The position numbers were made by a program, and so were the translations under genes. Positions 4,928 through 16,671 of a stretch of DNA of 64,000 nt are shown here, one piece after another (position 1 is the stretch's first letter; every line of letters starts with the position of its first letter). Where the stretch lies: NCBI RefSeq assembly GCF_001642025.1, contig NZ_LWHO01000003.1:411279-475278 (forward strand), read 5' to 3'. This DNA comes from Cutibacterium namnetense (GTDB taxonomy: Bacteria > Actinomycetota > Actinomycetes > Propionibacteriales > Propionibacteriaceae). Under the pieces are notes generated by a model. The model searched no databases, was not told the DNA's origin, and saw only the letters and a program-made list of their open reading frames with translations.

Positions 4928-7042
4928 ATGACCGACCTTGTCAGACGCAGAACCGTGCTGGGTACCTTGATGACAGCGGTCGTCGCCGCGCCCTTGGCAG
5001 ACCAGGCATCGCCGGCCTTCGGATCCGATACTCAGGACCTGACGATCCACCTCGTAGGTGCTCCGGCATCGAGCCGGGTGGAGGTCCGAAGCCTCGACGG
5101 TCGTATCCGTCGATATTCCACCCACGCGGAGCCTCTGTCACGGGCTGTTGTCGTGAGTGTCCCCTCACGCAGGTTCGCGGTGCGCATGGATTCAGGACGC
5201 TGGCGGTGGCTGGTCAGAGGCGATGCTGACCAAGTGTGGATCTTGCGCGACGGTGACTATGAGGATCCCGCCACATATCGATCTGCCCTGCTGGTCCCAC
5301 CTGAAGGTGTGCAAGACATGGCTGGACGGCGTTGGATCAGCATCGACTGGTTGGCGAAGGCCGCCGGTTGGCCCCTGTCCAGGGGAACAGTTCCGTTCGA
5401 TGGATTAGTTAGCGTTGCGTCAGACTTGCTGACCGTGCGACGCGGTGGCGACGTTGAGACTTTTGATACTCGACGCAATCTTCATGCCCGCAATTTTGAG
5501 GAGGAGTTCTTCCACAACGAGCCTCACCTCATGATCCAGCCAGTTGATGGGATGGTCGTTGACGGCCAGTACTGGCTCACCGTCGGTGTAGTGCGTCGGC
5601 TGTGGGATGTCAGATTGGTTCGGGTCGGTCATCAACTCATCGCTTTGCAGCGGATGCACGTTGGTTTTGACACCCTTGACGTCAGCCGGGACGTTGCCGC
5701 TGTGGGGTTTGACCAGTCGAAGTTGGCCGGGGTTGGCGCTTGGATCGATGACCAGGTTAAGGCCGGGTTTTCCGGAACGAGTGTGCTGGTCTGCCGCCAC
5801 GGCCAGATTGCGTGGCGTCACCATGCCGGTCAGGCCTTCAAGTACTCCACCAAGGTCGTCAACCACAAGGTGCAGAAGGCGCGACTGCTACCCCCTGCCG
5901 AACAGATTCCCGTGACGGCCACGACTCGTTTCGACATCGCCTCCAATACCAAGATGTATGCAGTCAACTTGGCCCTTCAGATGCTTGTGGGCCAGGGAAA
6001 GATCGACCTGTCGCGTCGGGTGTGCACCTTTCCCGGTTGGGAGGCTTTCCGCGACGAGTCGACTGTTTACACCGGTTCATGGACGGTTGGCGGCCCCGGC
6101 GGGATCAAGAGCAGATTCACTGGCAAACAGACCATTCGAGTGGTCGACCTCATGCACCATCGGGGTGGGCTCGTTCCGGATCCGCAGTATCCCAGCGCGA
6201 CCGTGGCTGGTGAGTTGTACCTGCAGAACCTCGATGACGTTTCGAACCGTGCTGACGTGATCGACCGGATTTGTCGCACACCTCTCATGTATGCACCGCA
6301 CACCCAGAGGGCGTACAGCGACGTCGACTACATGATCCTTGGCTTGATCGTCGAGCAGATCGTCGGCAAACGCCTGGACGAATATCTCCAAGGCGGCGTT
6401 TACCGTCGTCTGGGACTCAAGCGGACTGGATTCCGGCCCCTTGACGTCAAGGTGTCTGCCGAACTCATCGCCGCGACCGAGCTGAACGGTAACACTCGCG
6501 ACGGCACTGTCGACTTTGGCACCCGCCCTGATGGCAGCCCGGTGTTCATCCGTACCCAGACTATTCGTGGGCAGGTCCAGGACGAGAAGGCCTTTTACAC
6601 CATGTCGGGGGTGTCGGGGCATGCCGGACTCTTCTCCACCGCTGACGATCTGGGGGTACTGCTGCAGTTAATGTCTAACGAGGGCATTTACCAGGGTCAA
6701 GAATACTTCCCGGCCGATGTGCAACGTCGATTTCTTACCCCTGATGGTGGTGACGCGACCTATGGACTGGGCTGGCGAACGAACGGGTACTACTACTTCC
6801 ACGGCGGGCCGAGCAAGGCTGCCTTCGGACACACCGGCTGGACTGGGACCATCACGATGGTCGATCCGATACGTGATATCCAGATCGTGCTGCTGACGAA
6901 TATGCGGCACAGTCCCGTCACCGAGCCACCGAACGGGTTTGCCGCTCAGTCTTTCCCCCTTGCGCACTATGCGGGGCTCATCTGTCGGGTGTACCAGGCA
7001 TTGGCTGAAGATGGGAGAATCACGGATGTCGATGTGCCGTGA
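4928..7042 (+). CDS. Exported serine beta-lactamase/DD-peptidase-fold hydrolase
   Basis: The protein has 704 residues. The N-terminus has a twin-arginine-like signal (VRRRTVLG, then a hydrophobic stretch to about residue 25). A roughly 300-residue N-terminal region resembles a cell-wall or substrate-recognition module, with repeated short beta motifs. The catalytic half has the class C beta-lactamase/PBP signature: SNTK (Ser about 339, Lys +3), YSD (about 463) in place of YxN, and HTG (about 635) in place of KTG. The HTG form is frequent in esterase-like and D-aminopeptidase-like members, so antibiotic resistance should not be assumed. A role in peptidoglycan or D-amino-acid ester hydrolysis is inferred. 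It converges on the HdeD-like gene across a hairpin. Confidence 0.85.
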   Translation: MTDLVRRRTVLGTLMTAVVAAPLADQASPAFGSDTQDLTIHLVGAPASSRVEVRSLDGRIRRYSTHAEPLSRAVVVSVPSRRFAVRMDSGRWRWLVRGDADQVWILRDGDYEDPATYRSALLVPPEGVQDMAGRRWISIDWLAKAAGWPLSRGTVPFDGLVSVASDLLTVRRGGDVETFDTRRNLHARNFEEEFFHNEPHLMIQPVDGMVVDGQYWLTVGVVRRLWDVRLVRVGHQLIALQRMHVGFDTLDVSRDVAAVGFDQSKLAGVGAWIDDQVKAGFSGTSVLVCRHGQIAWRHHAGQAFKYSTKVVNHKVQKARLLPPAEQIPVTATTRFDIASNTKMYAVNLALQMLVGQGKIDLSRRVCTFPGWEAFRDESTVYTGSWTVGGPGGIKSRFTGKQTIRVVDLMHHRGGLVPDPQYPSATVAGELYLQNLDDVSNRADVIDRICRTPLMYAPHTQRAYSDVDYMILGLIVEQIVGKRLDEYLQGGVYRRLGLKRTGFRPLDVKVSAELIAATELNGNTRDGTVDFGTRPDGSPVFIRTQTIRGQVQDEKAFYTMSGVSGHAGLFSTADDLGVLLQLMSNEGIYQGQEYFPADVQRRFLTPDGGDATYGLGWRTNGYYYFHGGPSKAAFGHTGWTGTITMVDPIRDIQIVLLTNMRHSPVTEPPNGFAAQSFPLAHYAGLICRVYQALAEDGRITDVDVP

Positions 7043-7788: not shown

Positions 7789-7794
7789 AGTCTA
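7789..7794 (-). promoter_or_regulatory. Candidate leaderless -10 element for the HdeD-like gene
   Basis: On the minus strand TAGACT is followed by 6 nt and then the ATG at 7782. The TAG is also the stop codon of the upstream regulator gene. No Shine-Dalgarno sequence is present. Confidence 0.45.
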
Positions 7795-8664
7795 CGTGAG
7801 GGGCTTTCGGTGTGTGCTTACTGCGGTTCGGGTGCTGGTCAGGAGAGTCTCGAGGTCATCCATGCATAGCTGCGCGACGCGCGCAAAAAGAAAGTCAACA
7901 ACGGCTAGCTGGGACATACGGCTGGACATCGCACCGGCGCGGACCTGTGTTTCACGTGCTGAGGTGACGAGGACGTGGTCGGCAAGCCGCCCGACGGGGG
8001 AGTCAGGTAGACCCGTCATAGCAACGGTAGTAGCGCCGTGTTCTTGCGCGACGCTGAGAGCCTCAACAACTTCCTGGGTATCGCCGCTAAAAGAAATACC
8101 TAGGGCTACGCAGGAGTGCTTGCATAATGCGGCATGAACAAGCTGCATATGAGTGTCTTGGTGGTGCTGGCAAACAAGGCCAATACGTTCCAGCTTCTCG
8201 GATAGATCGCTTGCGACCAGACCGCTAGACCCGACCCCAAAGAGCGCCGTCCGCGGGGCGATAGAGATGGCACTCGCGACAGCTTCAAGCTCGTCGGCGT
8301 CGATAGCTCGCGCACTGTTCTCAATCGTGCGAGCCTCGTGGAACGCGATCTTCGTGATCATTTGGGTTAGAGAGTCGTCGAGGGTGATGGTGCCCTCAGC
8401 CACGGAGGATCTCTCCAACTCGAGGTTACGTAGAGACAGATCGCGCGCTAGCTCGGTGCGAAGCTGCCGGTAGCCACTCATCCCGAGGGCTCGGCAAAAA
8501 CGCACGACAGATGCGGGGGAAACGCCAGCAGCCTCAGCAAGTTGGCTCGTCGAAGCGGCGAGTGTCCAGTCGGGCTCGGCCAGTACGATAGCGGCAACCT
8601 GGGCCTCTGCAGGACGCATGGTCGATCTGGCCATATCGATCCGGGGTAGCAGGCTGTCATTCAT
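7792..8664 (-). CDS. RpiR/MurR-family transcriptional regulator
   Basis: This 290-residue regulator has an N-terminal HTH_6 domain (about residues 10-80, with SQLAEAAGVSPASVVRFCRA as the helix-turn-helix). The C-terminal SIS sugar-phosphate-binding domain covers about 120-270 and contains the GVGSSG and SFSGDT loops. The ATG at 8664 was chosen because GGAAGGA precedes it at proper distance; an ATG 9 nt upstream would sit on that site. It is divergent from murQ, which also has a SIS domain. By analogy with MurR of Escherichia coli it probably senses MurNAc-6-phosphate and controls the murQ-led operon. The ligand is inferred, not shown. Confidence 0.88.
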   Translation of the reverse strand: MNDSLLPRIDMARSTMRPAEAQVAAIVLAEPDWTLAASTSQLAEAAGVSPASVVRFCRALGMSGYRQLRTELARDLSLRNLELERSSVAEGTITLDDSLTQMITKIAFHEARTIENSARAIDADELEAVASAISIAPRTALFGVGSSGLVASDLSEKLERIGLVCQHHQDTHMQLVHAALCKHSCVALGISFSGDTQEVVEALSVAQEHGATTVAMTGLPDSPVGRLADHVLVTSARETQVRAGAMSSRMSQLAVVDFLFARVAQLCMDDLETLLTSTRTAVSTHRKPLT

Positions 8665-8678
8665 GTGAAACATCCTTC

Positions 8679-8713
8679 CATGAAAGATGGATTACGTGTA
8701 CAGTCATTTCATG
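8679..8713. promoter_or_regulatory. Candidate operator in the regulator/murQ intergenic region
   Basis: A perfect 7-bp inverted repeat, CATGAAA (8679-8685) and TTTCATG (8707-8713), is separated by 21 nt. It lies in the 126-bp gap between the divergent RpiR-type regulator and murQ. Centre-to-centre spacing is 28 bp, near three helical turns, which would suit a dimer or tetramer. Assignment to the regulator is inference from position. Confidence 0.35.
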
Positions 8714-8790
8714 TCGTGAGGACGGTGTGGTCCTGGGGCATGGCATCGCAGACATGGAACCACGAAATCTCGGCTCGGGGAGGAAATTCC

Positions 8791-9705
8791 ATGAACAGTC
8801 TGAGCAAACTTGCAACAACTGAAGGGAGGAACCCCGCCAGCGAGGGACTCGACCAGTTGTCAACCCTTGAGGTACTTCGCGTCATGAATGACGAGGACCA
8901 CCGCGTCCCGGAAGCCATCGCTTCGCAGCTGCCAGATATCGCTGCCGTCGTCGAGGCTGCAGTAAAGGGTCTGTCAGCCGGAGGCCGGTTGATTTATGCC
9001 GGTGCCGGCACGAGCGGGCGGTTAGGTGTCCTCGATGCAGTGGAGTGCCCACCGACCTTCAGCACCAAGCCCACGATGGTGGTCGGCCTCATAGCAGGTG
9101 GACAGCAGGCGATGTTTCAGGCCGTGGAGGGAGCTGAGGATGATGCGGATCGTGGTGCTCAGGAGATGAACATGCTTCAGCCTGGACCCCATGACGTCGT
9201 CGTCGGTCTGGCAGCCTCGGGACGAACCCCCTGGGTTGTGGGAGCGGTGCGCGCGGCGAAAAGAGCTGGGGCGGTGACGGCCTCGGTGTGTTGCAATCGC
9301 CATGCGGTCATCAGCGACGAGGTGGATCTTCCGGTGGAAGTCGACGCTGGCCCTGAGGTTCTCACGGGATCGACTCGTCTCAAGGCAGGGACCGTGCAGA
9401 AGCTGGTCCTCAACATGGTCTCCACGGCCACCATGGTCGGATTAGGTAAGACGTACGGCAACCTTATGGTCGACGTCTGTCCGAGCAACGAGAAGCTACG
9501 ACAGCGGGCCATGTCCATTGTCATGGCTGCCACGGGATGTTCTCGTGATGATGCCATTACGGCGCTGCACGAGTCTGGCGGTCATGCCAAGACGGCCATT
9601 GTCATGGTGCTGCTGGGAATGACTGCCGCGCAAGCTCGGGCCCGACTGGTGGAAGCAGGCGGAGCAGTCAGGGCCGCTATCGACGAGAATTACCTTCACC
9701 TGTGA
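8791..9705 (+). CDS. murQ: N-acetylmuramic acid 6-phosphate etherase
   Basis: This 304-residue enzyme cleaves the D-lactyl ether of MurNAc-6-phosphate, giving GlcNAc-6-phosphate and D-lactate. The SIS-fold signature GAGTSGRLGVLDAVECPPTF starts near residue 71 and includes the conserved Glu. The second conserved motif SNEKLRQRA lies near 230. The ATG at 8791 has a strong GGGGAGGAA 5 nt upstream and gives the usual family length. It is the first gene of the salvage operon, followed 19 bp later by the PTS gene. The enzyme is cytoplasmic. Assignment is secure. Confidence 0.96.
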   Translation: MNSLSKLATTEGRNPASEGLDQLSTLEVLRVMNDEDHRVPEAIASQLPDIAAVVEAAVKGLSAGGRLIYAGAGTSGRLGVLDAVECPPTFSTKPTMVVGLIAGGQQAMFQAVEGAEDDADRGAQEMNMLQPGPHDVVVGLAASGRTPWVVGAVRAAKRAGAVTASVCCNRHAVISDEVDLPVEVDAGPEVLTGSTRLKAGTVQKLVLNMVSTATMVGLGKTYGNLMVDVCPSNEKLRQRAMSIVMAATGCSRDDAITALHESGGHAKTAIVMVLLGMTAAQARARLVEAGGAVRAAIDENYLHL

Positions 9706-9724
9706 GTCTTCCAGGGAGGAAGCC

Positions 9725-11245
9725 ATGGACTACCACTCACTTGCGCAACGAATACTCGATCTTGCTGGCGGACCCGACAACATCCAGTCCTTTACCAATT
9801 GCATGACGCGGCTGCGTCTCGACCTCGTCCGGACGCAGACTGCTGACGCCGAGGCCATCAAGGAGCTGGACGGGGTCCTCGGAGTCGTCGAGGGCAAGCA
9901 GCTGCAGGTCGTAGTTGGGCCCGGGCATGCGGAAAGACTACGGACAGCCTTCGGTGAGGTCATGGGATCGGCGGGCTCAGCTCCTGCGACAGTCACAGAT
10001 CCGACGGCGCAAGACGCATCGTGTAGTACCGCAAGGCGGGATGGCGATTCTGTGACGGCCCAGACAGAGCTCACTCGAGTGGCCCCAGAAGGTGATACAG
10101 ATCTGGCCGTTCGCACCAAGAAAAAGGTGCGAAGCAAGCAAACATCGCGGGTGCATGCGATATTTCGTCACGTCGGGAATATCTTCGCCCCAATCATTCC
10201 AGGATTCATTGCCTGTGGATTAGTGAGCGCCATCTGCGGGATGTGGAAGGCGATCGATCCGACCGTCACCAGCGACGAGTGGTTTCTGGTTCTGGTTGGT
10301 CTGGGAGGTATCATTACTGCCTCGCTCAACCTCATTGTGGGCCACAACACGGCTCAAGAATTTGGTGGCAGTCCGATCTTAGGTTTCATCGCAGGCGGAG
10401 TTCCATATATGCCGGCTCTGGCTGGTAGGGCAGCAACAGACACGACAGCTGCTATTGCGGTGACGATCCCAATCTTCGGGGAGCTTCAGCCGGGGCTGGG
10501 AGGCGTCATCGGCGTCATGATCACCGCGTGGCTGTTCGCCGGCGTGGAAAAATGGTTGAGAAGAATCATCCCGGCTGTCCTTGAGCTCTTCCTTGTACCG
10601 GCAGTAACTCTGCTTCTCGGGGCTGCAGCGTCAATCTTCGTGATCATGCCGCTGCCATCCCTACTTATGAGGGGTCTTACCTGGCTGCTGGTCGATTTCG
10701 CGCTTGCCAAAGGTGGGATTATCGGCGGATTTATCCTCGCGACCCTATTTTTACCCATGGTGATGTTGGGCATCCATCAGGGGCTTACCCCAATTCATGC
10801 TCAACTCATTGCCAATCATGGTTTCACCGAGCTACTTCCCATCCTCGCGATGGCGGGCGCCGGTCAGGTAGGAATGGCCGTCGCCATTCTCATGAAGACC
10901 AGAAAACCAAGGCTGCAGTCCGTGATTAAGAGTGCATTGCCGATTAGCATCCTTGGTGTGGGTGAGCCGCTGATTTACGGCGTCTCCTTACCATTGCTAT
11001 ACCCCTTTCTTACCGCATGTCTTGGCGGCGGCTTTGGAGGCGCTTTTGTAGCATGGGGAATGCAGCATTCCGGAGCATTTGGGTCCCAGGCCTTAGGGCT
11101 CTCGGGCTTGCTTATGGCGCCGGTGATTTCCAGCAGTGGATGGAGCTGGTATCTCGGTGGTTGGCTCATATCGGTAATCATGGGCGCTGTGCTTACTTTT
11201 CTATTCGGCTTCAGAGAGTCCATAGCCGACCGAATTATAGATTGA
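9725..11245 (+). CDS. murP: PTS EIIBC transporter, MurNAc (glucose-superfamily) type
   Basis: The protein has 506 residues. The EIIB domain (about 1-85) carries the phosphorylated cysteine Cys26 in NCMTRLRLDL. A polar linker (about 95-140) precedes an EIIC domain of the glucose family with about ten hydrophobic segments. The start is ATG 9725 after GGGAGGAAG. No EIIA domain is fused, so phosphate would come from a separate glucose-type EIIA elsewhere in the genome, as for E. coli MurP. The position directly after murQ argues for MurNAc uptake as MurNAc-6-phosphate. Other amino sugars or beta-glucosides remain possible from sequence alone. Confidence 0.88.
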   Translation: MDYHSLAQRILDLAGGPDNIQSFTNCMTRLRLDLVRTQTADAEAIKELDGVLGVVEGKQLQVVVGPGHAERLRTAFGEVMGSAGSAPATVTDPTAQDASCSTARRDGDSVTAQTELTRVAPEGDTDLAVRTKKKVRSKQTSRVHAIFRHVGNIFAPIIPGFIACGLVSAICGMWKAIDPTVTSDEWFLVLVGLGGIITASLNLIVGHNTAQEFGGSPILGFIAGGVPYMPALAGRAATDTTAAIAVTIPIFGELQPGLGGVIGVMITAWLFAGVEKWLRRIIPAVLELFLVPAVTLLLGAAASIFVIMPLPSLLMRGLTWLLVDFALAKGGIIGGFILATLFLPMVMLGIHQGLTPIHAQLIANHGFTELLPILAMAGAGQVGMAVAILMKTRKPRLQSVIKSALPISILGVGEPLIYGVSLPLLYPFLTACLGGGFGGAFVAWGMQHSGAFGSQALGLSGLLMAPVISSSGWSWYLGGWLISVIMGAVLTFLFGFRESIADRIID

Positions 11246-11318
11246 CCGGCGAGGTGGTTTATCCGATAGGACTACGAACTGGTTGCATATTCATCGATAG
11301 CGAGAGAAAGACCAGAGT

Positions 11319-12257
11319 ATGTGTTTCTTGGGTGTCGACATTGGTGGAACGAGTGTAAGGTCCCTCGTTACCGATGCAGGCGGGAGAGTACTAGGTTATC
11401 AACGATTTGCGCGCGTCAGTCGCCGCTCATTGTGGCAGGTTCTCAATGACTGTCTGAACGCTGTGTTGGCTGAATCTGCGGTTGCACATGTGGAAGCAGC
11501 TGTCATCGGTGCTGCAGGCGCTGGCTTGTCTGGCGGCCGTGATGTCTGCCAGAGCGTCGACAAAGCATTTCGCGCCACGGGTCTCGGTGTCGTCCCCCAG
11601 GTGGTGACCGATATCGAGATTGCTTACTGGTCTGCTGCAACTTCGGGTGATGGGTCCATTCTCGTGGCAGGCACCGGGGCGATAGCCGGTCGCTTCTCAG
11701 AATGGCGTTGTGTCGATCGTCGAGATGGATCCGGATGGCTGTTGGGTGATTATGGCTCGGGTTACTGGATTGGGAGAAAAGCCTTGCGAGCCGCGACGGC
11801 GGACCTTGATGGGCGAGGCCCGAGTACCGCTATCACCCGCGGGGTTATCGAGGTTCTCGGATTGCCCGGTGGATGCACCGTTCAGGATCTCATTGGCGTG
11901 ACGAAGGAGCTTCGGCCGGCAGACGTCGCAAGTTTTGCTCGCGTCGTACTGTCTGCCCGAAACGACAAGATCGCGTCGATCATTATGGCTGCCGCGGCAT
12001 CAGAGTTGGTGACGACTGTGGCAAGCATCGGTGCTGAGCGCGTCATCCTGGCAGGAGGCTTGCTCGCGCCGAATGCCAGTCATTGCCAACAACCTAACGC
12101 GTTGCGGGCAATGGTGGAGGAATCGCTGGGCGGATGCAAATACGCGAGCTATCCGGTCGTCGGGGCATGTTGGGCGGCCGGCCGCGCAAGAGGTATCGAG
12201 CTGGACAAAGTTGATCTGCTCAATGCATTGGAGATGCGTTCGGATTCCAGGAGATGA
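11319..12257 (+). CDS. BadF/BadG-type sugar kinase, probable MurNAc/GlcNAc kinase
   Basis: This 312-residue ASKHA-fold kinase starts with the ATP phosphate-1 loop LGVDIGGTSVRSLV. It has AGTGAIAG near residue 112, then DGSGWLLGDYGSGYWIG (about 129-146), a motif of N-acetylglucosamine kinases and MurK. MurK of Clostridium phosphorylates both MurNAc and GlcNAc at O6. In this operon such a kinase would capture non-phosphorylated amino sugar released inside the cell, for example after splitting a disaccharide. The gap of 73 bp to murP and the overlap with the next gene place it in the operon. Substrate is inferred. Confidence 0.82.
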   Translation: MCFLGVDIGGTSVRSLVTDAGGRVLGYQRFARVSRRSLWQVLNDCLNAVLAESAVAHVEAAVIGAAGAGLSGGRDVCQSVDKAFRATGLGVVPQVVTDIEIAYWSAATSGDGSILVAGTGAIAGRFSEWRCVDRRDGSGWLLGDYGSGYWIGRKALRAATADLDGRGPSTAITRGVIEVLGLPGGCTVQDLIGVTKELRPADVASFARVVLSARNDKIASIIMAAAASELVTTVASIGAERVILAGGLLAPNASHCQQPNALRAMVEESLGGCKYASYPVVGACWAAGRARGIELDKVDLLNALEMRSDSRR

Positions 12258-12262
12258 TGACG

Positions 12263-13267
12263 ATGAAAACTGACAGGCCAATCACTCGCAGGGCCGTGCT
12301 ATCAACAACGTGTGCTGCGACTTTGACAGCGATGATGAGTCCGGTTGTCACCGCAAAGGCCGAGGAAGATCTCGGCAGGCCAACGGTCGTGTGGCAGCAA
12401 TGTGTCCGGAGGGCGTTAGGGCGTTTTCCGACCGGAGGTGGCTACCACACCGGCAGGGATATTCCGCCCGGTTTTCAGCAGACCGCGTGGACAGGGCTAG
12501 ACCGTGCGGTTCGGGTCCGGGCGACTGGAGCATGCGTGGACCCTCGCTTCGCGACGCCGTCGTTCTGCTCCTCGGCCACGTATCTTCTCCTGCTGAAGAG
12601 CCTTGAACTCTACGAGAGAACCTGCGGTATCACGCCGCCGAGGCAAGAGTGGGAATACCTCAAGCCGTACACAGTGAAGAATAGGTCTTACCCGATCCAG
12701 ACTGATGGAGTTGGTGCGTGGGGGCGTGCAAACGCCAACGGTCCAGGTGTGGCCGAATTGGTTCACGAATTAAAAATCGGTACCAACTTATATATTGGTA
12801 CGGCTAGCGAGTACGAGAATCCATGGGATCGCAACGAGATATTCGCGAGTGTCCGCAGACTCGACTTCATGAAAATATTCTGGAATGACGAGATCGGGAA
12901 AGATGAACGTGGCCACATGGTGCTTGTCTTAGGGCGGTCGCGTCACTGTGACCGCTTCGGGCGCAGGGCGGGAACCATTCGCTACTGGTCATCCAATGGA
13001 TCGCAGACTGACATCAATGGCGGTTATGGAATTCGGTGTGTCTGTGAAGACAAGATCCATCGCGCTGTCGTAACGCGAGTCAACCGACCCTGGAATCTGT
13101 GGAACACCGATGTGATGGGTCCTACCGACGTCTGCGCGCCGTTGGCTGAGATCGCTGCCGACAGGAGCATGGCTCCCGACGAGATGAGGCGACTGGTTGA
13201 CGCTAAGAGCTATTGGCCGAGCCGGTCGGAGGGATCGCACGGTGCTAACGAGAGGTGCATGAGATGA
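12263..13267 (+). CDS. Tat-exported putative Cys/His hydrolase of unknown family
   Basis: The protein has 334 residues from ATG 12263, which follows AGGAGA at 8 nt; ATGs at 12254 and 12257 are alternatives. The N-terminus has a twin-arginine signal (ITRRAVLS, hydrophobic to about 30, AKA before a likely cleavage site). The mature part resembles a papain/NlpC-like arrangement: Cys102 at a helix start (SFCSSATYLL), His218 before a strand (RGHMVLVLG) and Asn245 (YWSSN) as a possible third residue. Between them lies a conserved-looking GRANANGPG loop. I do not recognise a named family. Location between a MurNAc kinase and a phosphoglycosidase suggests muropeptide amidase or peptidase activity outside the cytoplasm, which is inference. 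It overlaps GH1 by ATGA. Confidence 0.75.
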   Translation: MKTDRPITRRAVLSTTCAATLTAMMSPVVTAKAEEDLGRPTVVWQQCVRRALGRFPTGGGYHTGRDIPPGFQQTAWTGLDRAVRVRATGACVDPRFATPSFCSSATYLLLLKSLELYERTCGITPPRQEWEYLKPYTVKNRSYPIQTDGVGAWGRANANGPGVAELVHELKIGTNLYIGTASEYENPWDRNEIFASVRRLDFMKIFWNDEIGKDERGHMVLVLGRSRHCDRFGRRAGTIRYWSSNGSQTDINGGYGIRCVCEDKIHRAVVTRVNRPWNLWNTDVMGPTDVCAPLAEIAADRSMAPDEMRRLVDAKSYWPSRSEGSHGANERCMR

Positions 13268-14694
13268 AGCGCATTCTGTGGGGTGGGGCTACCGCTGCCA
13301 GTCAATATGAGGGTGGGTTCTACGATGGGAAGGGACTAGATACCCAAGACTGTCGTCGGTGGGTGCCGCGATTGTCAACCGATACGGTGCAAACGCGTCT
13401 TCTTACCGAGGCTGATGTACAGCGCGCGAAGAATTCATCTCCCGATGATTGCTCATTCCCATTCCGTATGGGCTCGCGAGGTTACGAATACTGGGAGTCG
13501 GACCTACACAATATTATGAGTCTAGGTTTGGACATATATCGGCTCTCGATTAGTTGGTCCCGCTTGTTTCCTACTGGTTTTGAGGAGCAGCCCAATCCGG
13601 AGGGTGTGGCGTACTATGACCGGATTATCCGGGCTCTAGTAAATGCCAAGATTAAAGTCTTCGTCACGATCAATCATTATGCGATTCCTATTGCGATCAT
13701 CGACCGATACGGTGGCTGGCGGCACCGCGACGTGATTGACCTATACCTTAAGATGGCTAAATTTGTAGTCAACCGATGGCGGGACGATGTAGATTATTGG
13801 CTGCCAATAAACGAGATTAATTCCGGATATTTTAGTCCCTATAATGGACTCGGAATTATTGGATCTGACGACCGTAATTATGATTACGAATCTGTCTTTA
13901 ATGGTCTCCACTACCAAATGGTAGCAAGTGCGCTAATCACAAAGTATGGTCATGAAACCGGAGTGCGGGGAAAATTTGTGTGCATGGTGAGCTGTTTTAA
14001 CTATTATGCGCTCCACCCCAGGCCTGAGGACAACTTGAAGCTCGTTCACGACGAGCAGATCAACCAGTGGTGGTGTGCAGACGTACTTGCCACAGGTGAA
14101 TACGGGTATTATGCAGAGAAGTTCTTGAATGATCATGGGGTAGTGCTCGACGTAACAGACAAGGACCGTGAGGCACTAATGTCACATACCTGTGACATCG
14201 TGTCGTTTTCGTACTATTCATCGTCAATCTGTAGCGTCGACGAAAAGCGTGAGCAAGTCCCCGGAAATCTGGTGGCGACATTGCGGAATCCCAGTTTGGA
14301 AACTACCGAGTGGGGATGGCAGATAGATCCTATCGGCTTGAGAATTGCGGCTCACAAATTCTTCGATCGGTATCGAAAGCCTGTAATGGTCGCCGAGAAT
14401 GGCTTGGGTGCGCGCGATAATGTCGACTCTGACGGGCGAATTCGTGACGATTATAGAATATCTTATTTCGAGCGTCACATGGCGCAGGCTGAGCTTGCAG
14501 CTCGGGAGGGTGTTGATATAGAAGCGTACTTCGTTTGGGGCATTATTGATATCGTCAGCGCCGGTAGTTGTGAAATGGAGAAAAGGTACGGTGTCATCTA
14601 TGTCGACGCAGATAACGAAGGGCGGGGAACGTACAGAAGATTGCCGAAAGATAGTTTCTATTGGTATCGCGACTTCATTGCCTCTCATAGGTGA
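13264..14694 (+). CDS. GH1 6-phospho-beta-glycosidase
   Basis: This 476-residue protein is a GH1 (beta/alpha)8 barrel. The acid/base is in LPINEIN (about residue 183; NEI as in many phospho-glycosidases rather than NEP). The nucleophile is in VAENGLG (about 379). The phosphate-site motif is SCEMEKRYGVIYVD near 438-451, where Ser, Lys and Tyr normally hold the 6-phosphate. It hydrolyses a disaccharide-6-phosphate delivered by a PTS. ATG 13264 overlaps the previous stop as ATGA. Codons are visibly more A/T-rich than in neighbours. The substrate could be cellobiose, an aryl-glucoside, chitobiose or GlcNAc-MurNAc, and sequence does not decide. Confidence 0.9.
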   Translation: MKRILWGGATAASQYEGGFYDGKGLDTQDCRRWVPRLSTDTVQTRLLTEADVQRAKNSSPDDCSFPFRMGSRGYEYWESDLHNIMSLGLDIYRLSISWSRLFPTGFEEQPNPEGVAYYDRIIRALVNAKIKVFVTINHYAIPIAIIDRYGGWRHRDVIDLYLKMAKFVVNRWRDDVDYWLPINEINSGYFSPYNGLGIIGSDDRNYDYESVFNGLHYQMVASALITKYGHETGVRGKFVCMVSCFNYYALHPRPEDNLKLVHDEQINQWWCADVLATGEYGYYAEKFLNDHGVVLDVTDKDREALMSHTCDIVSFSYYSSSICSVDEKREQVPGNLVATLRNPSLETTEWGWQIDPIGLRIAAHKFFDRYRKPVMVAENGLGARDNVDSDGRIRDDYRISYFERHMAQAELAAREGVDIEAYFVWGIIDIVSAGSCEMEKRYGVIYVDADNEGRGTYRRLPKDSFYWYRDFIASHR

Positions 14695-14721
14695 GTGAAT
14701 CACAATCAAGGAGGATTGGTC

Positions 14722-15033
14722 ATGTCCAACGTTTTACTAGTTTGCTCTGGCGGTATGTCGAGTGCGATCGTTCTCAAGAATTTGGAAAAGGAATTTCAGA
14801 AGCTTGGCGAGCCGCTTCACGCTAAAGCTGTCGGGTCAGGGCAAGCGCAGGACGAGATATCGACAGGAGAGTGGGATCTTGTCTTGGTAGCTCCCCAGGT
14901 GCGAAACAGGTTGAAGACTTTTCAACAGTACGCCGATCAACGTGGAATATCGATTTGCGCGATTCCTCCGCTTGCCTACGGTCCGCTCGGTGGTTCGGAA
15001 CTCGTAAAGACTGTCAAAGAACATCTCGGGTGA
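14722..15033 (+). CDS. PTS EIIB, lactose/cellobiose family
   Basis: This 103-residue cytoplasmic phosphocarrier starts at ATG 14722 with AAGGAGGA 6 nt upstream. The phosphorylated cysteine is Cys8 in LLVCSGGMSS, the signature loop of lactose/cellobiose IIB proteins. It receives phosphate from the IIA encoded at 16333 and gives it to the sugar bound by IIC. It is separated by 27 bp from the GH1 gene and by 5 bp from IIC. Sugar specificity cannot be read from IIB. Confidence 0.93.
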   Translation: MSNVLLVCSGGMSSAIVLKNLEKEFQKLGEPLHAKAVGSGQAQDEISTGEWDLVLVAPQVRNRLKTFQQYADQRGISICAIPPLAYGPLGGSELVKTVKEHLG

Positions 15034-15038
15034 TCAGC

Positions 15039-16302
15039 ATGGAGAAGTTCTTTGACTTCTTGGATAGGAGAGTGGCTGGCCCGATGTCGATGGTATCGGA
15101 GCAGCGGCATATCCGGGCCATTCGGGACGGCGTTATTTCCGCTATCCCCTTCATTATTGCCGGTAGCTTTATTCTCATCATAGCAGCTCCGCCGGTGCCT
15201 GAAACATCGGGATTTGCTATGTGGGCGAAGAGCCACGCGGAACAGATTCTCGTTCCATACCGTATGACGTTTGGAATCATGTCCCTATATGTATGCTTTG
15301 GCGTCGGCTCAAGCCTTGCTCGTAGTTACGATCTTGATGGCCTCGCTGGTGGTCAACTTGGTGTCGCCGTATTTCTACTTAGTTTGACTCCAAAGACGTT
15401 TAAGGGCGGCATCTATTTGGCTCTCGATGGTCTAGGATCGAAAGGACTTTTTCCAGCAATGATCTTGGCGTTGCTGGCAGTCGAAGTGATGCGCGTCTGT
15501 TACAAGTATGACCTGACGTTCAAGATGCCAGAGCAGGTGCCAGAATCCGTCAGCAGATACTTTGGGGCGGTCGTTCCTACCTTCATCGTTATGGGTGTGA
15601 TGGCTCTGGTATCTGTCGTTTTCAAGATTGATATCGTCGACGCCGTACAGCAAGGACTGTCGCCCCTAGTCAAAGCTGGCGACTCGTTGCCAGGAGTATT
15701 GGTGCCAGCCTTCCTAGTTGTCTTTCTATGGTTCTTCGGAATTAGCGGAGATTCCGTAGTTGGATCGGTTGCTAGGCCGGTGTGGTTGCAGTATCTGAGC
15801 GATAACGCGGATGCCGTGGCTGCCAGCACTCCGGCTCCTCATATTGCGCCGGAGACATTTTTTCAGTGGTTCGTCTCCATCGGGGGATCTGGGGCAACCA
15901 TAGGCCTGGTTATTGCTGGATTTTTGGTCGGGAAAGCCAAGTACACGAAGTCAATCACGCGGGCGGTCGCAGTTCCAGCGCTATTCAACATCAGTGAACC
16001 GATCATGTTCGGTCTTCCTGTCATGATGAATCCGTTTTTTTATTGTTCCATTTCTGCTGACTCCATTGATCTTATGCGTGGTGACTTGGTTCGCCTTCCG
16101 CTGGGGATTTGTGACCTATATGGCCGTGCAACCTCCATGGACGTTGCCGGCTCCGATAGATGCGTTCTTAGCGACAGGTGGCGACTGGCGTGCCGTCATC
16201 CTGTGCCTGATGAATATATTAATCTCGACCGTCGTCTACTATCCGTTTATGAGGATGTATGACAGGGATCAACTCAAAAAAGAGCAATATGAAAAATGGT
16301 GA
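15039..16302 (+). pseudogene. PTS EIIC, lactose/cellobiose family, frameshifted at a T7 run
   Basis: This is the membrane permease of the second PTS, starting at ATG 15039. The frame encodes MEKFFDFLDRR and about 330 residues of typical IIC with eight or so membrane spans, up to VMMNP. At the T7 run (16035-16041) it leaves frame. Read with six T, the sequence continues as PFFIVPFLLTPLILCVVTWF and runs to the stop at 16300-16302, giving a normal protein of about 420 residues. As written, translation goes out of frame and ends at 16262, losing the last membrane segments and the C-terminus. It may be a broken gene, a slippage-controlled gene or a base-calling error. Confidence 0.9.
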
Positions 16303-16332
16303 CGCATGACGTCGGACTATAGGGGCGGTGAC

Positions 16333-16671
16333 ATGGATAGTGCGGCCGTGATGTCAGAGGTTGAAACCGCGATTTTCGCCATTATCACCAGTGCTGGCGA
16401 GGCGCGTGCGTCGCTGTACGAGGCTCTTGAGAAGGCACGGGCTGGACAGATGGTGGAGAGCCAACAATGCATGAGCCAGGCGGATATGCAGTTAAGGACA
16501 GCCCACGATGTGCAGACCGACCTCATCACGCGTGATCTCAACGGCTCGCTGCCGATGTCGCTTCTGCTCGTCCATGCCCAAGATCAGTTGATGACGACGA
16601 TGTCAGAACAATCTCTCATTGAACAAATGATTTTGTTAATTCGTGACATGGAGGTGAAGCGCGGGAAGTGA
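16333..16671 (+). CDS. PTS EIIA, lactose/cellobiose family
   Basis: This 112-residue all-helical phosphocarrier takes phosphate from HPr. The active histidine is His81 in LLLVHAQDQLM, the family signature, and the length matches the trimeric IIA-Lac/IIA-Chb proteins. ATG 16333 follows AGGGGCGGTG, while ATG 16306 lies nearer the IIC stop but lacks a ribosome site. It is the last gene of the carbohydrate island, and a 385-bp gap without a gene follows. It looks intact, although the IIC it serves is frameshifted. Confidence 0.92.
   Translation: MDSAAVMSEVETAIFAIITSAGEARASLYEALEKARAGQMVESQQCMSQADMQLRTAHDVQTDLITRDLNGSLPMSLLLVHAQDQLMTTMSEQSLIEQMILLIRDMEVKRGK

Follow-up and report, generated by a model that had tools for sequence, protein, structure and literature searches.

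A BadF-family sugar kinase, a GH1 enzyme and the IIB, IIC and IIA components of a lactose-type PTS, encoded downstream of murQ in a Cutibacterium operon, probably form together with MurQ a system for the salvage of peptidoglycan disaccharides, the most likely cargo being GlcNAc-beta-1,4-MurNAc, the disaccharide that lysozyme-type muramidases produce. That these proteins serve one MurNAc-disaccharide pathway had been suggested in a preliminary description of this DNA; the idea now has strong comparative support, although the IIC gene is frameshifted here. We infer the substrate, the order of the steps and the role of an additional exported protein as follows. This papain-like protein may first trim muropeptides of their peptides. 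The lactose-type PTS would then import GlcNAc-MurNAc, phosphorylating the GlcNAc end to give GlcNAc(6P)-MurNAc, which the GH1 enzyme would split into GlcNAc-6P and MurNAc; the BadF kinase would convert MurNAc to MurNAc-6P, MurQ would convert this to GlcNAc-6P, and NagA would pass on GlcNAc-6P from both halves (a NagA-like gene is present elsewhere in the genome, with a score below the cutoff of its model). MurP, retained beside the kinase–IIA cassette, would probably serve free MurNAc.

The window, i.e. the whole 64-kb stretch of DNA analysed, lies in a 2.37 Mb genome of Cutibacterium type. Profile and open reading frame evidence recovered all eight genes named earlier, in the order given and on the + strand, with a divergent RpiR/MurR-family regulator gene (7792..8673, - strand; PF01418 and PF01380) whose product has 93% identity to the copy in G003, a C. 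acnes-like relative that we take to be C. acnes. The MurNAc-6-phosphate etherase MurQ (about 8791–9705) exceeds the cutoffs of both curated models (NF003915, 413.6 bits against 168; TIGR00274, 381.4 against 302), and its gene is likely to start at the ATG near 8791, because a longer open reading frame from 8665 overlaps the regulator. The following PTS EIIBC (9725–11245; PF02378 and PF00367) has the MurP equivalog NF007152 as its best NCBIfam match, yet at 303.6 bits it falls below that model's cutoff of 516, and ‘MurP-type’ is a name given from best match and gene context alone. Then come the BadF/BcrA-family kinase, a proposed MurNAc kinase (11319–12257; PF01869, 67.5 bits, cutoff 31.5); the exported Cys/His protein, with a twin-arginine-like signal and a papain-like fold predicted by a structure model (12254–13267); the GH1 6-phospho-beta-glycosidase (13255–14694; PF00232, 306.6 bits); and the lactose/cellobiose-type IIB (14695–15033; PF02302; probably starting at the ATG near 14723, after AAGGAGG), IIC (15039–16302; first part, TIGR00410, 268 bits against 236) and IIA (16306–16671; PF02255, 97.1 bits). 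The short gaps and overlaps described previously were confirmed, overlap being seen between the kinase and exported protein reading frames (4 bases) and between the exported protein and GH1. Inside the murQ–IIA unit, sequence scans revealed no enrichment of promoter- or terminator-like sites, and a single transcript would fit the overlaps and the scans, which fall short of proof. Just upstream of the mur locus, the window also encodes an exported serine beta-lactamase-family protein (4928–7042; PBP4B model NF002968, 394 bits, above cutoff), which is intact in G003 and a remnant in C. modestum. The ybbE gene of B. subtilis belongs to a wall-scavenging gene set and, by analogy, this protein may belong to the same such set as the mur locus.

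The lactose/cellobiose-type PTS had been called complete. All of its families are present, but IIC is split in this assembly by one extra T (TTTTTTT, 16035–16041), a +1 frameshift, so that the first frame ends at 16262 and the C-terminal portion lies in another frame (16066–16302). No intact set of IIA, IIB and IIC is thus present in the window; G003, with six T at this run, encodes an unbroken IIC of 422 aa. All operon genes show strong purifying selection against G003 (dN/dS 0.05–0.26), as does the IIC stretch past the shift (0.058), which marks them as genuinely coding. The frameshift is accordingly a recent mutation or an assembly error, either being possible.

The possibility that the GH1/PTS part occurs mostly without mur genes in relatives, raised earlier as a challenge to the linkage, was checked and did not hold: the nearest GH1 relatives are all mur-linked. 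Full-length GH1 proteins outside Cutibacterium in 198 Propionibacteriaceae genomes have identities of at most about 44%, and no gene among the matches listed has murQ within a distance of 15 kb. The best relative in the phylum (52%) is that of G521, where the gene order is murQ-IIA-IIB-IIC-kinase-GH1, an RpiR gene is present and murP is lacking. Searching the whole family of G521 gave five more GH1 genes of the same lineage (65–84% identity to G521), all accompanied by murQ, IIA, IIB, IIC and kinase in two gene arrangements, and a class-wide sample held no further members. G521, G633, G637, G725, G727 and G721, presumably Coriobacteriia, carry murQ, IIA, IIB, IIC, a BadF kinase and an RpiR gene beside GH1. 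When a tree of 65 GH1 sequences was constructed, all eight mur-linked proteins fell in one clade (support 100/100, no shuffle as low). Every one of the eight adjoins murQ, a lactose-type IIA-IIB-IIC and a BadF-type kinase, across five genera from two distant actinobacterial groups; the next lineages outside the clade, among those read, adjoin a Glc-family EIIBC and are without murQ. In G713 a GH1 gene stands 4 kb away from a murP-mupG locus, yet it falls outside the clade and was rejected as a member.

Two kinds of mur locus were evident in the G521 family, where murQ occurs at 42 places, 21 of them read at gene level. The first, RpiR-murQ-murP-mupG without a kinase, accounts for ten loci, plus one more that a contig end truncates. 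The second (eight loci) combines murQ with IIA/IIB/IIC and a BadF kinase, the glycosidase being GH1 alone, GH1 with GH170, or GH170 alone; MupG-like GH170 stands beside GH1 in G725, G727 and G721. No MurP match at E <= 1e-40 was found in G521, G633, G637, G725, G721, G618 or G632, i.e. MurP is absent from five of the six non-Cutibacterium GH1-clade genomes and from seven of the eight with a second-kind locus. Since these seven lack MurP, the lactose-type PTS is most likely the entry for the MurNAc used by MurQ and AnmK, judging from gene content. G727 has MurP in a separate murP-mupG locus besides its lactose-type one, and so the two kinds are not simply redundant. The anhydro-MurNAc kinase AnmK is encoded in five of the eight lactose-type loci, close after the BadF kinase (L178:1956-3140, L179:10940-12106, L180:8209-9375, L210:15187-16362 and L213:1336-2619), which suggests that anhydro-disaccharides may be used too; none was found in the Cutibacterium operon or the 64-kb window. 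In the substrate of AnmK the C6 oxygen is tied in a ring, leaving no free C6 hydroxyl, and a PTS would therefore be unable to phosphorylate it there; the simplest reading of AnmK in the sister loci favours a GlcNAc-(anhydro)MurNAc that is phosphorylated on its GlcNAc. The L. paracasei system, in which a cellobiose-type PTS and GH170 handle chitobiose, sets a precedent both for an N-acetylated cargo and for cleavage at a GlcNAc-6P end (PMC12791066). Elsewhere, a small membrane protein of no clear family is encoded between IIA and IIB in lactose-type mur loci (L177:5924-6358 and L142:5468-5986), and in G437 a lactose-type IIC fragment (L202:9062-9266) beside a murQ-mupG-murP locus is a possible remnant of a second-kind locus.

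Within Cutibacterium, G001 carries murR/murQ-murP at the same gltB-dnaE site as the window, and next to it an intact gene for a MupG_N-domain protein (6-phospho-N-acetylmuramidase, GH170); in other Propionibacteriaceae a similar gene follows murQ-murP, the single one scanned (L129) being MupG by Pfam. G003 and C. modestum have a decayed mupG that separates murP from the kinase, and in C. avidum a fragment is located after a broken GH1. The window has no intact mupG beside murP; comparison with G001, G003 and C. modestum places at this position a 73-base gap alone (11246..11318, + strand). Because mupG is intact in G001 and decayed or gapped in carriers of the cassette, the kinase, exported protein, GH1 and lactose-type PTS genes entered an older MurP/MupG locus as a cassette and mupG was then lost, so that a mupG-based pathway is seen being replaced within one bacterial genus. 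The cassette has itself decayed: in C. modestum GH1 is truncated and deletion has removed IIB and most of IIC, and in C. avidum the exported protein alone looks intact; G004 has kept the regulator alone and G005 no gene of the locus. Broken in two species and absent from other Cutibacterium, it is dispensable.

Decay of mupG exactly at the cassette site would also be expected if the orientation were the opposite, with the PTS importing MurNAc-GlcNAc, a turnover product in S. aureus (PMC6262408), GH1 replacing the lost MupG to yield MurNAc-6P and GlcNAc, and the kinase acting on GlcNAc; S. aureus has no known step for the released GlcNAc (PMC6262408), and the Cutibacterium kinase also resembles GlcNAc kinases. 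We consider this unlikely, given that AnmK in the five sister loci indicates release of (anhydro)MurNAc without a phosphate, that GH170 is held beside GH1 in three genomes and that one of these, G727, has its separate murP-mupG locus. As marks of a MurK-type kinase we took membership of the BadF ATPase family, a small residue before the catalytic Asp and a lactyl pocket without bulky Glu or His. The solved structures nearest to the window kinase are the hexokinase 2e2n and the MurNAc/GlcNAc kinase 8zo3, and those compared have H or N before the catalytic Asp. The window kinase has T there, as does MurK (T94; PMC10465942); kinases of lactose-type mur loci have T or S, whereas most GlcNAc/Glc kinases compared have N or H. 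As a mark of a MurNAc kinase the residue is suggestive only, because T also occurs in 1zc6, a probable GlcNAc kinase, and 8zo3 itself carries a MurNAc annotation.

The GH1 gene is the sole PF00232 gene in the genome. Its product keeps the NE and ENG motifs and the phosphate-site Lys and Tyr of a 6-phospho-beta-glycosidase (N186, acid/base E187, nucleophile E381, K443 and Y445), the -1 subsite residues being ordinary ones, and scores below the cutoff of the curated 6-phospho-beta-glucosidase subfamily NF007158 (420.3 bits against 639). Such canonical active-site residues, and the best matches of GH1, IIB, IIC and IIA to cellobiose/6-phospho-beta-glucosidase models, would suit two unrelated systems sharing an operon, one for MurNAc salvage and the other an ordinary beta-glucoside (cellobiose-type) PTS/GH1. 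This we regard as distinctly unlikely, as the set recurs with murQ in the six genomes of the other group, five of them without MurP, in two arrangements, and the GH1 clade coincides with mur linkage. The mur-linked clade has residues of its own (Y18, R39, A143, Y192, S324 and C439) beside the catalytic and phosphate-site ones, consistent with a changed cargo but short of proof; we know of no GH1 enzyme with demonstrated activity on N-acetylhexosamine 6-phosphate, and tolerance of the N-acetyl group by GH1 is the weakest point of the proposal. A chitobiose (GlcNAc-GlcNAc) system with products co-regulated with MurNAc salvage is very improbable, since despite the L. paracasei precedent of a cellobiose-type PTS with GH170 (PMC12791066) it would need neither MurQ nor AnmK, and the L. 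paracasei operon has no kinase. Chitobiose, mooted as cargo in the preliminary description, and cellobiose are accordingly disfavoured, and neither was retained as the most likely sole cargo in view of the repeated linkage of the PTS to murQ, the kinase and, in some loci, AnmK.

Peptide stripping outside the cell had also been proposed, and here the predicted papain-like fold of the exported protein speaks for the idea and its absence from the sister (non-Cutibacterium) lactose-type mur loci against it. The protein has no Pfam or NCBIfam match, and a sequence search of solved structures gave chance matches only. At least 44 of 48 homologues keep C105 and H221, and D204, W245-N248 and R275 are also conserved. 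The model (pLDDT 83) has the papain-like order of elements; Foldseek gave no match at E <= 0.001, and VIA-align matches were weak (best Z 8.1), the top rows being mostly endolysin CHAP and NlpC/P60 domains. Relatives with 30–36% identity occur in Bacteroidota and Verrucomicrobia, and the other actinobacteria in a sample of 396 genomes have none. Of 48 loci outside Cutibacterium, a single one adjoins murQ, a Verrucomicrobiales operon (L029:5340-9600) that encodes a BadF kinase-MurQ fusion, a PIG-L-like deacetylase, a NagB-like protein and the exported Cys/His protein. As a marker of mur loci the protein was rejected, being found in Bacteroidota beside acyl-ACP thioesterase, LptF and CpsB genes. 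In C. avidum its gene (L120:4162-5178) is open amid broken murQ, kinase and GH1, and there it may have another purpose. The protein thus appears to be a Cutibacterium addition outside the conserved core, of uncertain role, for which trimming of peptides is plausible on the model.

Salvage of GlcNAc-MurNAc through the lactose-type PTS is therefore our preferred reading. In a broader form, for and against which we see the case as evenly balanced, it would constitute a second, new PTS route of peptidoglycan salvage, specific to muramidase-type GlcNAc-(anhydro)MurNAc, in which a GH1 lineage interchangeable with GH170 has evolved to cleave N-acetylhexosamine-6-phosphate, and which skin and other actinobacteria share through horizontal transfer.

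The PTS routes known so far for salvaging cell-wall sugar have MurNAc or MurNAc-GlcNAc as their cargo. If true, our proposal adds a PTS route for fragments from lysozyme-like enzymes, accounts for a kinase beside PTS genes, gives GH1 a new kind of substrate and renders testable the feeding of a dominant skin commensal on cell walls, whether its own or those of its neighbours. In our literature search no paper described a lactose-type PTS that works with GH1 and a kinase on peptidoglycan disaccharides, and none on C. acnes described the locus; MurP/MupG salvage, GH1 phospho-glycosidases and MurK kinases are already known, and their combination looks undescribed. GH1 6-phospho-beta-glucosidases that work with a PTS (structures 6wgd and 4ipl) share the fold, catalytic residues and phosphate-site Lys/Tyr, but belong to an ordinary beta-glucoside context and lack the mur-linked clade's own residues. 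MurT-MurK-MurQ of T. forsythia likewise pairs a sugar kinase with MurQ for unphosphorylated MurNAc, but takes up the monosaccharide by a non-PTS transporter (PMC10465942). In the chb operon of L. paracasei a cellobiose-type PTS similarly delivers an N-acetylated disaccharide phosphate to a 6-phospho-glycosidase, the differences being chitobiose as cargo, a GH170 enzyme and the lack of murQ and kinase (PMC12791066). Finally, the MupG-MurQ-MurP-MurR pathway of S. aureus has in common an RpiR regulator, MurQ, PTS import of a MurNAc disaccharide and a cytoplasmic 6-phospho-glycosidase; there, however, MurP (EIIBC) and GH170 MupG act on MurNAc-GlcNAc with no kinase (PMC6262408), whereas the Cutibacterium operon has a lactose-type IIA/IIB/IIC, a GH1 enzyme and a kinase instead.
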